Source: Catenulispora acidiphila DSM 44928
GTDB taxonomy: Bacteria > Actinomycetota > Actinomycetes > Streptomycetales > Catenulisporaceae
Assembly: GCF_000024025.1 (NCBI RefSeq)
Contig: NC_013131.1
Span: 310,001-374,000 of the forward strand
Direction of reading: 5' to 3'
Length of the DNA: 64,000 nucleotides
This document shows positions 50,412 to 55,445 of the stretch, piece by piece. The notes beneath the pieces are model-generated. The model was not told the origin of the DNA, did not search any database, and worked only from the letters and a program-made list of their open reading frames with translations. Within the stretch, counting starts at the first letter, position 1; the number at the start of each line of letters is the position of its first letter. A program made the position numbers and the translations under genes.

Positions 50412-51983
50412 TCAGAACGGCAGCGCCGGGTCGTCCCCGGAGGCGAGCAGTCCGAACAGGGTGAACACCTTGTCCGAGAACCCGCCGATCTCGAACCGGT
50501 TCCGCTTGCCGGGCGGAAGCGCGCTCGGACCGTAGCCCGCGGTGTTGATCCCGAAGACCGGGACCGTGTCCGGGATGAACGCGTCCGCGCCCTTGTTCTG
50601 GTGGTAGAAGTACGGGAACGCCTGCATGTCGCTGACGATCACCACGCGGTCGTGCCGGTCGTAGGTCGCCGCGATCGCGTCGATCATGCGGGTGCCGTGC
50701 CCGACCTCGCCGGAGCGCTTGGCGAACGCCTCGATCCCGCGCAGGACGCTGCCGCCCTTGGTCAGCTCGTGCCTGAAGACGCCGTCGGCGAAACCGACGA
50801 GGTCCACGTCGTCGGCGCGTCCGGAGCCCGCCGCGCGGTCCGCCAGCGCGACCCCGATCAGCGCACCGATGTCCAGGTGCGTGACCGTCGAGCGCGCCGA
50901 CACCCGGCCGGTCATCGACCCGGAGGTGTCGACCAGGACCAGGGTGCGCCCCGGCAGCTCCGGGACGCCGGCGATCGCGTGCCCCAGCGCCCCCTCCAGC
51001 GCGTGTCCCCACCGCAGCGACGGCGCGGCCTTGTACGCCGACAGCCACCGGTACGGCAGCATCCGCGACCGTCCCACCTGGCCGGCGTCCAGGAACCGCG
51101 AGCAGACCCGCCACGCCACCGCGTCGGCGACCCCGGCCTCGTCGAAGTTCCGCAGGTTCCGCGCCAGCGCCATCAGACCCATCGACGGGATGACCGCCTC
51201 CCAGGCGGCCTGGTCCATCGGGCCCTGCAGCCAGCCGGCCAGCGCCTCCCACGTCATGCCCGCCTCGGCCAGGCGCTGCGCGCCGCCCTCGGCGAGCAGC
51301 ACACCGCGCCGCTCCGCCACCGGCAGCCCGAGCAGCGCAGCCCGCTTGGCCAGCTTCGGCAGTGCCTCCGGCACCGGGTTGTCCCGGTTGTGGCGGCGGT
51401 CCAGCGCGTGCCGGAACAGCTCGCCCTGCCAAGGCTTGTCGGCCGCGGCAGCGGGGTGCACGAGATCGATGACGTCGCCGAAGCGGAAGCCCTTGGCGTC
51501 CGAGTCGTACTTCGCGAACGAGTACTCGTTGTACAGGTGCGCCACGGCGTCGGCGACACCGCGCTTCACCGGCTTCGGCAGCGCGCGGCCGTAGCGGCCG
51601 GTCCAGTACGCCAGGACCTCGCCGGGCTCGTCAGCACGCTGACACGCGGCGGCTATCAGCTGGCGGCCGTACCCGGACGCCTCCGCGTCCAGCCGGGCCC
51701 GCACGGACTCGCACGCCGCGACGACGGCGGCGCTGCGCATGTTCGCCTCGGCACGCAGCCAGGTGACGAAGCGCAGCATCCACTCGGGGTCGGAGACGGC
51801 GACGGCGTGCACGAGATCGCGGTAGCGCTCGTCACGGGTGTCGGCGGACTCGTAGAAGGTGTCCTCGCCGACCATGTTCGTGACCGCGAGCAGGAACAGG
51901 TCCGCCTTCGGGTCGCGCTTGTAGGCCTTGCCGCCCTCGAAGGTCTTGGCGGTCTTGGTCGCTGTCTTGTTGAACTTCGCCAT
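50412..51983 (-). CDS. rsr: Ro60 ortholog (TROVE domain plus vWA)
   Basis: 523 residues from ATG 51983. The TROVE module opens with FLLAVTNMVGEDTFYESADTRDERYRDLV and continues as HEAT-like helices forming the RNA-binding ring. The vWA domain begins with LVLVDTSGSMTGRVS, an intact MIDAS site, and ends ...FTLFGLLASGDDPALPF. Bacterial Ro proteins bind Y-type noncoding RNAs and, with polynucleotide phosphorylase, act in structured-RNA decay and stress survival. The 229 bases upstream are unusually structured and may encode the RNA partner. No rtcB gene is adjacent. Confidence 0.93.
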   Translation of the reverse strand: MAKFNKTATKTAKTFEGGKAYKRDPKADLFLLAVTNMVGEDTFYESADTRDERYRDLVHAVAVSDPEWMLRFVTWLRAEANMRSAAVVAACESVRARLDAEASGYGRQLIAAACQRADEPGEVLAYWTGRYGRALPKPVKRGVADAVAHLYNEYSFAKYDSDAKGFRFGDVIDLVHPAAAADKPWQGELFRHALDRRHNRDNPVPEALPKLAKRAALLGLPVAERRGVLLAEGGAQRLAEAGMTWEALAGWLQGPMDQAAWEAVIPSMGLMALARNLRNFDEAGVADAVAWRVCSRFLDAGQVGRSRMLPYRWLSAYKAAPSLRWGHALEGALGHAIAGVPELPGRTLVLVDTSGSMTGRVSARSTVTHLDIGALIGVALADRAAGSGRADDVDLVGFADGVFRHELTKGGSVLRGIEAFAKRSGEVGHGTRMIDAIAATYDRHDRVVIVSDMQAFPYFYHQNKGADAFIPDTVPVFGINTAGYGPSALPPGKRNRFEIGGFSDKVFTLFGLLASGDDPALPF

Positions 51984-52212
51984 CGGTGGATCACCCCGTG
52001 TGGAAACGCGGGGAGCGGCGCGCGGTTCACGGCAGGGCCGAGGACAGGATCGGCCGATGTGCCGGCCGATCCTGCGAGAAGTCGCGAGCGCACTCCCGAG
52101 ATCTGATTCGGCGGCGGGTGAGTACTTTCCCAAGAAGTATCCGCTGCCTGCGCACCGGGAGGTGCTCCCACAGAATGCTGGTGGAGCTTCGTGGGCGTCC
52201 ACCGTTTTTCCT
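51984..52212 (+). ncRNA. Structured region beside Ro60; candidate Y-type RNA
   Basis: CAGGATCGGCCG (52045-52056) and CGGCCGATCCTG (52063-52074) form a perfect 12-bp stem with a 6-base loop. GGGAG/CTCCC (52157-52169) forms a smaller hairpin. GGTGGA (52180-52185) and TCCACC (52198-52203) are followed by TTTTT (52205-52209), a classical plus-strand terminator and rare in such GC-rich DNA. TCCACCG (52198-52204) can alternatively pair with CGGTGGA at 51984-51990, joining both ends of the region. The terminator has no protein gene to serve on the plus strand. That it is the Y RNA is inference, and the promoter is not identified. Confidence 0.4.
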
Positions 52213-53790
52213 CTATGCCGAAGCCGATTCCGGAACCACTGTCGATGCCTCAAGCTGTGCCGTGACCGCCTCGGTCTTGGTCTTCCTGGGGTTCGCGAAC
52301 GCGCCGAACACCAGCAGCGCCCCGATCCCGGTCGCCGCCGCCGACCACACCATTCCGGTGTGCATCGCGTGCACGAACGCGAGGTCCGCCTGATGCGCCA
52401 GGTTCGGGATCCCGTTGTGCCGCGCGACGTTCCGGGCCATCTCGGCGGACGTCTCAGCCTGCTGTTTCAGTGGCGCGGGCAGGGCGGCCACCGAGCCGCC
52501 GATCGCGTGCCGGTATCCGATCGACAGGATCGTGCCGCCGAGCGCGATGCCCAGCACGCTGCCGGTCTGGCGCATGGTGGCGTTCACCGCGCTGCCCGCC
52601 CCGGCTTGGGCCAGCGGCAGCGAGCCGAGGATCGCGCCGGTCAGCGGGGCGATGGTCATGCCGATCGCGGTGGCCTGGACGATCGACACGGCGATGTAGG
52701 CGGGGATCGGCAACCCGAGGCCGACCCGGGAGAAGACCAGGAGCGTGATCGTGGAGACCGTCAACGCGGTGCCGCTGACCCGGCGGACCGAGGTACGGCG
52801 CGCGAGCTTCGCGGCGACCGGTCCGCCGATGACGACGCCGAGCGCGCCGGGGATGCCGACCAGGCTGGCGCGCAGGGCCGAGTAGCCGCGGGCGCCTTGG
52901 AGGTAGAAGGCGAAGTAGAAACCGCTCGCGCTCAAGGCGAGGAACAGCAGCGTCAGGGAGACGTTGCCGGCGGCGAACTGGCGCAGGCGGAACAGCCGCG
53001 GGTCGAAGCTCGGGTGTCGGCGGCGCAGCTCCACGACCACGAACGCGGCGGTCACCACCAGCCCGCCGGCGACGGTGATCCATACCTGCGGTTCGGTCAC
53101 GGTGCCGTCCTGCCCGGCCCGGATCAGGCCGTAGGACAGCAGACCGAGGCCGGCGGAGGAGAGCAGCAGACCGGGGAAGTCCAGTCCTCGCTTGGCCGGC
53201 GGCTGGAAGTTCGGCACGGTCCGGGCGATCGCGACCAGGCCGAGCACCACCACCGGCACGTTGATCAGGAACACCGAGCCCCACCAGAAGTTCGCCAGCA
53301 TCAGACCGGCCAGCACCGGTCCGGCGGCGATGCCCACCCCGGCGAAACTGCTGAGCACGCCGAAGGCCTGCGGGCGCTGCTCGGGCGGGTAGGTGAAGCT
53401 GATCACCGCCAGCGTCGCCGGGATCAGCAGCGCGGCGCCCAGGCCCATGACGGCGCGGGCCGCGATGAGCTGCCCGGTGTTCTGCGAGTACGCGGCGAAC
53501 ACTGAGGCCAGTCCGAACAGCGCCATGCCGGCCAGCAGGGTGTTGCGATGCCCGAAGCGGTCGCCGAGGGCGCCGCCGGTGAAGGTGACGGTGGCCAGGA
53601 CCAGCGTGTAGGAGCCGGTGGCCCACTGGAGCTGGCCGGGAGTGGCGCCCAGGCCGCGGACCGGGTCGGCGAGGGTTTCGTAGGCGGTGGACAGGACGGT
53701 GCCGTCGATCCAGATCAGGAGCTGCGCGAAGATCAGGACGGTCAGGATCAGGCGCTGCCGTCGGCCGGACGGCGGGCTGTTCGTGGACAT
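52213..53790 (-). CDS. DHA2-type MFS drug transporter
   Basis: 525 residues with 13-14 predicted helices in EmrB/QacA style: TM1 with the acidic WIDGTVLSTAYETL, GDRFGHRNTLLAGM between TM2 and TM3, and motif C in SSFAGVGIAAGPVLAGLMLANFWWGSVFLINVPV. GGGGGG lies just before the ATG on the minus strand. A marR gene is divergent, and perfect palindromes lie between them. It probably exports drugs or an endogenous metabolite; the substrate is unknown. Confidence 0.93.
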   Translation of the reverse strand: MSTNSPPSGRRQRLILTVLIFAQLLIWIDGTVLSTAYETLADPVRGLGATPGQLQWATGSYTLVLATVTFTGGALGDRFGHRNTLLAGMALFGLASVFAAYSQNTGQLIAARAVMGLGAALLIPATLAVISFTYPPEQRPQAFGVLSSFAGVGIAAGPVLAGLMLANFWWGSVFLINVPVVVLGLVAIARTVPNFQPPAKRGLDFPGLLLSSAGLGLLSYGLIRAGQDGTVTEPQVWITVAGGLVVTAAFVVVELRRRHPSFDPRLFRLRQFAAGNVSLTLLFLALSASGFYFAFYLQGARGYSALRASLVGIPGALGVVIGGPVAAKLARRTSVRRVSGTALTVSTITLLVFSRVGLGLPIPAYIAVSIVQATAIGMTIAPLTGAILGSLPLAQAGAGSAVNATMRQTGSVLGIALGGTILSIGYRHAIGGSVAALPAPLKQQAETSAEMARNVARHNGIPNLAHQADLAFVHAMHTGMVWSAAATGIGALLVFGAFANPRKTKTEAVTAQLEASTVVPESASA

Positions 53791-54024: not shown

Positions 54025-54477
54025 ATGTCCACGTCTGACAAGCTCGGCGAGGACGGCGTCGTCAGCTTCGCCATCCGCCACGTCTGGCTCGGCATGCGCG
54101 CCGTCATCGAGGACGAGCTCACCGAGTTCGGACTGACCGTTCCGCAGTTCGCGACCCTGATGATGCTCGACAGCTCCCCGGGGTTGACCGTCGCCGAGGT
54201 GGCGCGGGCCTGCGGCACGACCCGGCAGTCCGCGAACGAGATGGTCGCCGGCCTGGAATCCCGCGGCCTGGTCGAGCGCGCCGCGCACCCGACGGACCGG
54301 CGCGCGCACCAGCTGCACGCGACCGAGGCGGGCCTGGAGATGTACGCGAAGGCGCGGCCGGCGGTGCGGCGCCGCGAGGAGGAGCTGGAGGCCGGGCTCA
54401 GCCCGCAGGTGCGGCAGGCCGCCAGGGAGTGGATGGCGGCGATCGCGATCTCGTGCGGCTTGCCGGACAAGAAGTAG
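54025..54477 (+). CDS. MarR-family repressor of divergent MFS gene
   Basis: 150 residues from the ATG at 54025; the open frame extends 69 bases further but through the leader. The winged HTH is LTVPQFATLMMLDSSPGLTVAEVARACGTTRQSANEMVAGLESRGLVERAAHPTDRRAHQLHAT. Location and operators predict repression of itself and of the DHA2 exporter. The mRNA would start near 53902 and carry a leader of about 120 bases. Confidence 0.9.
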   Translation: MSTSDKLGEDGVVSFAIRHVWLGMRAVIEDELTEFGLTVPQFATLMMLDSSPGLTVAEVARACGTTRQSANEMVAGLESRGLVERAAHPTDRRAHQLHATEAGLEMYAKARPAVRRREEELEAGLSPQVRQAAREWMAAIAISCGLPDKK

Positions 54478-54499
54478 AACCTGCTGACGTAAAACCCTG

Positions 54500-54529
54500 T
54501 TGCGCCGCGGCGCCGCAGCCCGATACCTT
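54500..54529 (+). promoter_or_regulatory. Promoter of the leader-peptide/hydrolase transcript
   Basis: TTGCGC (54500-54505) and TACCTT (54524-54529) are spaced by 18 bases. A start near 54536 would give a leader RNA of about 136 bases before the hydrolase ATG. Confidence 0.45.
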
Positions 54530-54565
54530 GCGTACGCCGTGACCGAAGCGAAGGAGGTGAGACCC

Positions 54566-54619
54566 ATGAAGGCGGTATCGACGTGGGTGCTCCCCGTGCT
54601 GTCACGGGCAGGCGACTGA
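54566..54619 (+). CDS. 17-residue leader peptide
   Basis: The ORF reads MKAVSTWVLPVLSRAGD and stops at TGA 54617-54619. AAGGAGGTGA (54551-54560), five bases before the ATG, is fully complementary to the 3' end of 16S rRNA and is the strongest ribosome site I saw in the window. The ORF sits in the 5' leader of the hydrolase gene, and its last codons form one arm of competing hairpins. The C-terminal SRAGD before the stop recalls the R-A-G of arrest peptides such as SecM (which ends RAGP). The resemblance is short and may be chance. Confidence 0.6.
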   Translation: MKAVSTWVLPVLSRAGD

Positions 54620-54668
54620 CTCAGGAGTCGCCGGGAGCGCCGTTATCAAGTGCTCCCGAAGGGCGACT
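54611..54668 (+). promoter_or_regulatory. Competing hairpins controlling the hydrolase ribosome site
   Basis: Segments: a GGCGACT (54611-54617), b AGTCGCC (54626-54632), c GGGAGC (54633-54638), d GCTCCC (54652-54657), e GGCGACT (54662-54668). b can pair with a or with e, but not both. b+c with d+e forms a 13-bp stem with a 4-base bulge that buries the GAAGGG ribosome site (54658-54663) three bases before the hydrolase ATG. a:b pairing frees that site. The leader-peptide stop codon lies in and next to segment a, so ribosome position would choose the structure. Confidence 0.6.
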
Positions 54669-54671
54669 GCC

Positions 54672-55445
54672 ATGTCTACTTCACTTCTTTTCACCAGTGA
54701 TTCCTCCGCGGACGGTGTCCGCGAACGCGACTTCACCGTGGGCGGCGTCCCCGGTGTCCTGTGGTCGCCGGACTCCCGTCCCGACCGCGCGCCCCTGGTC
54801 CTGATCGGCCACGGCGGCGGCATCCACAAGAAGGCGCCCGGCAGCGCCGGACGCGCCCGCGCGCTGGTGCTCGGCTGCGGGTTCCACGTCGCCGCCATCG
54901 ACGCGCCCGGCCACGGCGACCGCCCGCGCACCGAGCACGACGAGCGCGAGATCGACGCGCTGTTCGCGGCGCGCGACGCCGGCGAGCCGGAGGGCCCGAT
55001 CGTCGTGCGCTACAACGCCTATCTGGCCGAGCAGGCCGTGCCGGAGTGGCGCGCGACCCTGGACGCGCTCCAGGAACTGCGCGAGATCGGCGCCGACGGT
55101 CCGGTCGGCTACTGGGGCATCAACATGGGCACGGCGATCGGTATCCCGTTCGTCGCCGCCGACCCCCGGATCACGGCCGCCGTCTTCGGCCAGCACTGGC
55201 CGGACTTCCTGGCCGAGCCGGCGAAGCGGATCACGATCCCGGTCGAGTTCGATCTGCAGTGGGACGACGAGCACATCCCGCGCTCGGCCGGTCTGGCGCT
55301 GTTCGACGCCTTCGCCTCGCCGGAGAAGACGTTGCACGCCAACGCCGGGCGGCACAAGCAGCTGCCCCGGTTCGAGGCGGACAGCGCCGTCCGGTTCTTC
55401 GCTCGGCACTTCGGTGCCCCGGCCGCCGGCACGGCGGCCGCGTGA
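54672..55445 (+). CDS. Alpha/beta-hydrolase fold protein with Asn at the nucleophile site
   Basis: 257 residues of the dienelactone hydrolase-like alpha/beta fold: the oxyanion segment PLVLIGHGGGIHKKAP, AAIDAPGHGDRP and the nucleophile elbow GPVGYWGINMGTAIGIPFVAA. The elbow normally reads GxSxG; here it is G-I-N-M-G with codon AAC, one base from AGC (Ser). Asp (DDEHIPRSAG region) and His (NAGRHKQLP) of the triad remain. The protein may be catalytically silent, may use another residue, or the base may be a sequencing error. It is preceded by a leader-peptide/RNA-switch arrangement. Confidence 0.85.
   Translation: MSTSLLFTSDSSADGVRERDFTVGGVPGVLWSPDSRPDRAPLVLIGHGGGIHKKAPGSAGRARALVLGCGFHVAAIDAPGHGDRPRTEHDEREIDALFAARDAGEPEGPIVVRYNAYLAEQAVPEWRATLDALQELREIGADGPVGYWGINMGTAIGIPFVAADPRITAAVFGQHWPDFLAEPAKRITIPVEFDLQWDDEHIPRSAGLALFDAFASPEKTLHANAGRHKQLPRFEADSAVRFFARHFGAPAAGTAAA

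Follow-up and report, generated by a model that had tools for sequence, protein, structure and literature searches.

A conserved leader with competing hairpins before an alpha/beta-hydrolase gene of Catenulispora acidiphila and four other actinomycete gene types: a candidate sensor of ribosomes held at initiation

The hydrolase gene and its leader

The window analysed here is a stretch of 64,000 nucleotides from Catenulispora acidiphila DSM 44928, whose genome is a single contig of 10,467,782 bases. The gene of interest encodes an alpha/beta-hydrolase-type protein (Table 1) that finds no family in Pfam or NCBIfam at 1e-3; relatives of it occur on 38 plasmid records, 30 of them from Streptomyces (for example NZ_CP108024.1:675350-676081). 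A MarR-family gene (54025-54477) lies upstream on the same strand and stands between the leader and a gene for a DHA2-type drug efflux transporter (TIGR00711, 235.6 bits against a cut-off of 230.2), which is two genes upstream of the leader on the minus strand (52213-53790). Also on the minus strand, 50412-52250 encodes a 612-aa protein with a match to the TROVE (Ro60-type) domain (PF05731, 36.5 bits; cut-off 23). There is no Rfam match anywhere in the window, and therefore no Y-RNA-like partner of the TROVE protein is seen.

The first-pass annotation had described a 17-codon leader ORF with a perfect Shine-Dalgarno (SD) sequence ahead of the hydrolase gene, and both can be read directly in the sequence, with 52 bases between the leader stop and the main start. 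The three competing segments it had named are also in place: AGUCGCC (segment 6b) can pair with GGCGACU at the end of the ORF (segment 5) or with a second GGCGACU directly before the gene (the outer arm). The latter pairing had been put forward as a 13-bp stem that buries the main ribosome site. Its two parts, GGGAGC:GCUCCC (6 bp) and AGUCGCC:GGCGACU (7 bp), exist and end 3 bases 5' of the ATG at 54672, but a four-base bulge (GAAG, 54658-54661) splits the stem, and because the GAAG of the main SD sits in this bulge the SD is only partly paired. The best fold of the leader RNA alone contains an ORF-end hairpin and a short hairpin in place of the 13-bp stem. The leader RNA folds better than its shuffles (z = -2.56; 1 of 200 equally good), as does its 3' part (z = -2.42; 5 of 200). 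Three things had escaped the first-pass annotation: a hairpin that holds the leader's own SD and start (P2), a pairing between segments 3 and 6 (3:6), and the presence of the element before four other gene types.

Upstream of the leader, the best promoter-like site has 2 mismatches at the 13 constrained positions of the WblC/WhiB7 motif described in Streptomyces coelicolor (GAAAWY, 3 bp, -35, 16-19 bp, -10; PMC7157823). By the 7-8 bp rule given in the same source, the transcript is predicted to start at about 54536-54537, on the first bases of P1. Since such a site precedes the leader, there is no need to assume that transcription begins downstream of 54620, which the first-pass annotation had named as a case that would tell against its reading.

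Table 1. Features of the hydrolase leader and its surroundings (positions in the window)
Feature	Position	Strand	Remarks
Promoter-like site, WblC/WhiB7-type motif	54491-54529	+	AAAACC 54491-54496, TTGCGC 54500-54505, TACCTT 54524-54529
P1 5' arm, CCGUGAC	54537-54543	+	Pairs with 54601-54607; double changes at all 8 helix pairs counted
Leader SD, AAGGAGGTGA (segment 2, together with start codon)	54551-54560	+	Read directly; kept in alignments A2 and A4
Leader ORF, 17 codons, MKAVSTWVLPVLSRAGD, stop included	54566-54619	+	ATG 54566, stop 54617-54619; read directly
P2 3' arm	54582-54593	+	CGUGGGU 54582-54588 with ACCCAUG 54562-54568; CUCC 54590-54593 with GGAG 54553-54556
Segment 3 (candidate antisequestor), GGUGCUCCC	54586-54594	+	Can pair with segment 6; 98.0% of cells paired
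P1 3' arm, GUCACGG, within leader ORF	54601-54607	+	Partner of 54537-54543
Segment 5, GGCGACU, at ORF end	54611-54617	+	Pairs with 54626-54632; 74.6% of cells paired, 16 double-change cells
Segment 6b, AGUCGCC	54626-54632	+	Partner is segment 5 or 54662-54668
Segment 6, GGGAGCGCC	54633-54641	+	Partner is segment 3 or segment 7
Segment 7, GUGCUCCC	54650-54657	+	Pairs with segment 6; 81.8% of cells paired
Main SD, GAAGGG	54658-54663	+	
Outer arm, GGCGACU	54662-54668	+	60.1% paired in 50 copies
Alpha/beta-hydrolase-type gene, 257 aa	54672-55445	+	Related to solved esterase 4ao6, E 4e-33

Spread of the element over five gene types

Among 60 relatives, 39 have matches to the hydrolase, and the element lies upstream of it in 28 of the 30 relative loci fetched, down to about 50% protein identity; the leader SD is missing from two of the 30 (L019 and L021). 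An alignment of 22 of the 28 element-bearing loci (A2) shows that the 5' end, the leader SD, the start, the core GGGTGCTCCC, the ORF end and GGGAGCGCC...CTCCCGAAAGG are kept. A covariance model built from these 22 loci (R1) matched 54 of the 60 relatives at an E value of 1 or better, where the weakest matches are likely due to chance, and 38 of 148 class-wide genomes at 0.001. A broader model (R2) found the element in 88 of 296 Actinomycetes genomes, from 34 of 115 genera, at 1e-4; in the C. acidiphila genome it matched in two places, the window leader and a GNAT/IF-1 operon. Named genomes scanned with a DNA pattern gave at least 118 stretches, and the 80 loci retrieved among the matches listed include Streptomyces, Nocardia, Micromonospora, Nonomuraea, Rhodococcus, Arthrobacter, Mycolicibacterium, Kribbella and others. 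Both R1 and the DNA pattern were first built from hydrolase-type copies. The element scored below the gathering cut-off in every family of Rfam 15, with no match at E values up to 5 either, and no known Rfam element was found in it. At one Actinomadura nitritigenes locus the only matches are tRNAs, eight consecutive genes on the minus strand downstream of a PrmC-like gene (L131:3335-4152).

After removal of 13 copies identical over their first 70 bases, 202 distinct copies remained, and 201 of them sit before one of five gene types: the hydrolase (93), a rifampin monooxygenase (24), a GNAT acetyltransferase operon with an IF-1 paralogue (19), a patatin-like protein (14) and a PrmC-like glutamine methyltransferase (51). 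The single unassigned copy (L196) is at a contig end, and three (L067, L151 and L154) were classed by eye. Because copies share descent, these counts are not independent events. The monooxygenase of L065 matches NF033145 (834.9 bits; cut-off 800) and PDB 5vqb (E 1.1e-210), the PrmC-like protein of L076 matches TIGR03704 (400.3 bits; cut-off 248.8), and the GNAT (L061) and patatin-like (L102) proteins have Pfam matches. The IF-1 paralogue follows the GNAT gene in all 18 operons with enough sequence and in none of 127 loci of the other classes. Two copies tallied with this type (L067 and L074) have the IF-1 paralogue immediately 3' of the leader, with no GNAT gene in between. A sixth gene family was sought in a second class-wide search and 50 further copies and was not found; all 50 belong to the five types.

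In seven of nine monooxygenases compared (L082, L084, L088, L089, L091, L092 and L106), the N-terminal stretch of about 40 residues matches that of hydrolases, the best pairs reaching 51-69% identity (E 3.7e-8 to 1.2e-14, with four hydrolases as the database). The simplest reading is that the leader and the hydrolase 5' end were recombined together in front of the monooxygenase, in this presumed direction.

In 198 of 202 copies a stop ends the leader frame ahead of the main start, as against 60 and 59 for the +1 and +2 frames, and neither the covariance models nor the DNA pattern made use of the reading frame. Conservation of the leader ORF, which the first-pass annotation had proposed as a check, is seen in the copies. 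Four hydrolase leaders (L015, L017, L020 and L174) have no stop ahead of the main start. Leaders are mostly 14-27 codons long, and across copies the RNA core GGGUGCUC is read in all three frames, so that it encodes WVLP, MGAP or HGCS. It lies in frame 1 in 87 of 89 hydrolase and 24 of 24 monooxygenase leaders, in frame 2 in 9 of 10 patatin leaders, and in frame 0 and frame 1 in ten GNAT leaders each. It is therefore the RNA and not the peptide that is conserved. The SRAGD ending recurs only in a few same-genus copies, and other leader peptides end in TVGR, SRAGG, TAGRPT, PSRSGG and so on.

The putative leader start, defined as the position 13 bases after the first G of GGAGGTG, differs among the gene types. 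In the 51 PrmC-like copies it is AUU in 30, AUC in 17, GUU in 2, GUC in 1 and AUG in 1 (L300, the sole PrmC-like leader with AUG); one of the AUU codons is at offset 14. The start is always AUG or GUG in the monooxygenase, patatin and GNAT/IF-1 copies. Among hydrolase copies, 11 of 93 have AUC, AUU or GUU, and AUC occupies the position in 5 of the 28 relative hydrolase loci (L014, L015, L017, L018 and L020). The frame of the PrmC-like leaders is closed in 51 of 51 copies (9 and 18 for the other frames). A GUG inside the leader SD, nine bases upstream of the start, shares this frame in copies with the usual spacing, and closure alone is for this reason no proof of initiation at AUU or AUC; a separate SD for this in-SD GUG would not fit.

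The promoter motif, scanned in 158 of 159 copies and scored as a match at 2 or fewer mismatches, also follows gene type. It is found in 67 of 82 AUG/GUG hydrolase copies, 21 of 24 monooxygenase copies and 14 of 20 GNAT copies, and in only 1 of 10 patatin, 0 of 16 PrmC-like and 1 of 6 AUC/AUU hydrolase copies; block-shuffled controls gave fractions of 0.00-0.02. The hydrolase, monooxygenase and GNAT/IF-1 genes are likely to be under two layers of control, WblC-type transcription and a leader that opens the message for translation once ribosomes are stalled at initiation. The leader layer alone would act in the PrmC-like class and in most patatin-like copies, where the motif is missing.

Competing pairings and the position of the ribosome

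Pairing was counted by column in an alignment (A4) of 50 diverse copies out of 54 picked (L014, L016, L018 and L080 omitted). Taken together, P1, P2 and 6:7 with the outer arm are paired in 78.1% of cells, compared with 74.5% in shuffles and 41-45% when slid, and contain 67 double-change cells (36.4 shuffled, 31-57 slid); none of 500 shuffles reaches either observed value. The pairs with a double change number 16, compared with 11.8 in shuffles (reached by 5 of 500) and 12-17 when slid. The two helices of P2 are paired in 82.7% and 99.0% of cells. The complementary segments persist in relatives, and both mutually exclusive pairings of the 54626-54632 arm that the first-pass annotation had proposed are kept with compensatory changes. 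For 5:6b, no shuffle in 500 attains the paired share and 3 in 500 attain the number of double-change cells; sliding by -3 gives 74.0% and 16, from fewer cells. Competing pairings of which one covers the main SD in part are what a translational attenuator would have.

The 3:6 pairing is kept far above its slid registers (45-62% paired) and forms a helix of at least 8 bp in 152 of 159 copies. It has 2 double-change cells, a number reached by 36 of 500 shuffles, and since the pairing is nearly invariant, covariation gives it no support. What favours 3:6 as such is its middle pair G66-C139, which is standard in 49 of 50 copies though P2 and 6:7 hardly use it: G66 is unused by P2, and C139 pairs within 6:7 in only 10 of 50 copies. 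A swapped-partner energy test on 156 of 165 copies favours the own partner in 123 of 156 for 6b:7 but barely, in 84 of 156, for the 6:7 core, with segment 6 misplaced in at least six copies (L001, L003, L006, L107, L109 and L075) and the P1 values invalid; the conclusions on pairing rest on the A4 column counts and not on these energies.

Segment 3 begins 18-20 bases after the first base of the start codon in 145 of 163 copies. The edge of a start-arrested Escherichia coli ribosome is reported at +16 to +18 (PMC12121999), which would place segment 3 just beyond a ribosome on the leader start, as in leaders that respond to start-codon arrest. The first-pass annotation had proposed that ribosome occupancy of the leader switches the structures; an effect of ribosome position is clear in nascent RNA and weak or absent at equilibrium. 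When the RNA ends just after segment 6 (152 of 165 copies, occupancy scaled to nine pairs), mean 3:6 occupancy rises above 0.5 in 151, 148, 120, 7 and 1 copies when codon 1, 2, 3, 4 or 5, respectively, is in the P site, in no copy for codon 7 or any later codon tested, and in 12 copies without a ribosome, where P2 forms in place of 3:6. For the window copy the values are 0.97, 0.97, 0.69 and 0.01 for codons 1-4 and 0.14 without a ribosome. This nascent-RNA fold was chosen after the result for the full leader was known and is not an independent test.

The complete leader, analysed in 159 of 165 copies with ribosome masking on 67, behaves differently at equilibrium. In the window copy, 3:6 is absent from it at every ribosome position. 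A ribosome on the start raises 3:6 in three classes only, from 0.16 to 0.59 in patatin, from 0.24 to 0.46 in PrmC-like and slightly, from 0.00 to 0.11, in hydrolase leaders. Over the 67 copies, exposure of the main SD barely changes except for a drop with the ribosome at the leader stop, seen in four of the five classes and only slight in the PrmC-like one. Because the switch appears in nascent RNA but not at equilibrium, timing during transcription is essential to the model set out below.

A putative start-sensing attenuator and its alternatives

The leader and its competing hairpins probably sense stuck ribosomes. We think it rather probable that the window element is one copy of a conserved and portable translational attenuator that opens when ribosomes are arrested at the beginning of the leader ORF. 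As long as no ribosome is arrested, P2 (segments 2:3) would hide the leader SD and start; once a ribosome has translated as far as the leader stop, 6/6b would pair with segment 7, leaving the main SD partly covered (the off state). A ribosome arrested on any of leader codons 1 to 3 would break P2 and leave segment 3 just past its edge, free to capture segment 6 once this is transcribed; segment 7 would then be single-stranded and the main gene translated (the on state). Arrest further along would leave 5:6b, a partly open state.

The pairings at the end of the ORF allow a switch to be placed there alone, which is the scheme of the first-pass annotation. A ribosome at the stop would cover segment 5, so that 6b pairs with the main SD region (off), and arrest upstream or lack of translation would leave 5:6b (on), with segment 3 kept only for P2. 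The compensatory changes in 5:6b and 6b:7 and the drop in main-SD exposure that a ribosome on the stop causes in four classes out of the five accord with such a scheme, which also needs no timing during transcription, but the 98% match of segments 3 and 6, including pairs outside P2 and 6:7, is left unexplained, and we consider it unlikely as the whole account. An ORF-end switch could instead add to the 3:6 switch.

Premature termination, in which transcription would stop at the hairpin in front of the gene except where ribosomes on the leader counteract it, would have a precedent in cplR-like leaders that combine both levels of control (PMC10201436). An intrinsic terminator is rejected because 155 of 159 copies have no U-run: TTTT follows segment 6 in only 4 of 159 over the stretch scanned, and the window hairpin is followed by GAAGGG. 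Transcription attenuation as a whole appears very unlikely, although a Rho-dependent version may yet apply. Reinitiation (PMC4833913), by which the leader would merely feed terminating ribosomes to the main start and its structure would be incidental, agrees with a frame kept closed upstream of the gene; the 52 bases from leader stop to main start in the window and a structure kept with compensatory changes speak against it, and we give it hardly any weight. Peptide-specific arrest near the leader end by a nascent chain of the R-A-G type, suggested in the first-pass annotation by the SRAGD ending of the window peptide, is scarcely credible and was rejected, since the peptide tail and middle vary among copies and the core is read in three frames.

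In erm-type attenuators such as ermCL, a stalled ribosome releases one RNA segment, which then pairs with the following one, in a peptide- and drug-dependent manner, and there is older work on the leaders of Streptomyces chloramphenicol-resistance genes. The four-segment logic of the erm type may be common to both systems, whereas the leaders described here do not keep the peptide, and the segment that would be freed in them adjoins the start codon. The closest likeness in mechanism may be to toiL, the leader of topAI in E. coli, where tetracycline and retapamulin hold ribosomes on the start codon of a short ORF and the main SD is unmasked (PMC12121999). As described there, toiL pairs with the main SD itself, stalling anywhere works and one operon is controlled, whereas in the present leaders, which precede several gene types, segment 6 would be contested by a separate segment 3; the two are compared by mechanism, not by sequence. 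On the cplR (MRI), vmlR (MIN) and vmlR2 leaders of ABCF genes, ribosomes are believed to stall directly after initiation and largely irrespective of the peptide; cplR combines translational attenuation with termination (PMC10201436). In that account the leaders are very short and carry terminators, unlike the longer leaders without a U-run described here, which also precede other genes. The WblC/WhiB7 regulon of S. coelicolor comprises genes against translation-targeting drugs under transcriptional control, and the window site resembles its promoters in having a GAAAWY-type motif upstream; in the text of PMC7157823 available to us, a shared leader of this kind before regulon genes is not mentioned. 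Nor does the main text of the uORF4u paper mention Streptomyces, Actinobacteria or these enzymes. The first-pass annotation knew of no such control for this gene type, and none was found in Rfam or in the literature searched, which comprised few subscription papers and no supplements. What would set the present leader apart from start-arrest leaders is the separate antisequestor, the range of five gene types and the AUU/AUC class.

By family, the hydrolase, the monooxygenase and the others appear to be several kinds of drug- or translation-stress genes. Rifampin targets RNA polymerase and does not stop ribosomes, which makes the rifampin monooxygenase the odd one among the types; either its leader serves general stress, or the natural substrate of the enzyme is another drug. 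More tentatively, and with somewhat less than even confidence, we propose that the copies jointly form an unrecognised, portable and peptide-independent leader family of the Actinomycetes that senses ribosomes held at a start codon from any cause and regulates enzymes of detoxification together with an IF-1 paralogue and a PrmC-like methyltransferase. The AUU/AUC codons of the PrmC-like leaders would be kept so that the sensor reads initiation, through IF3-type discrimination against weak starts, and not elongation.

If this is true, a widespread regulatory RNA missing from Rfam marks actinobacterial genes that answer ribosome arrest, and stress and resistance genes that lack an assigned substrate could be tagged by it across whole genomes. 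In the AUU/AUC leaders, selection would then have kept a start codon weak, a case for comparison by which the part that initiation fidelity plays in stress sensing could be tested directly.
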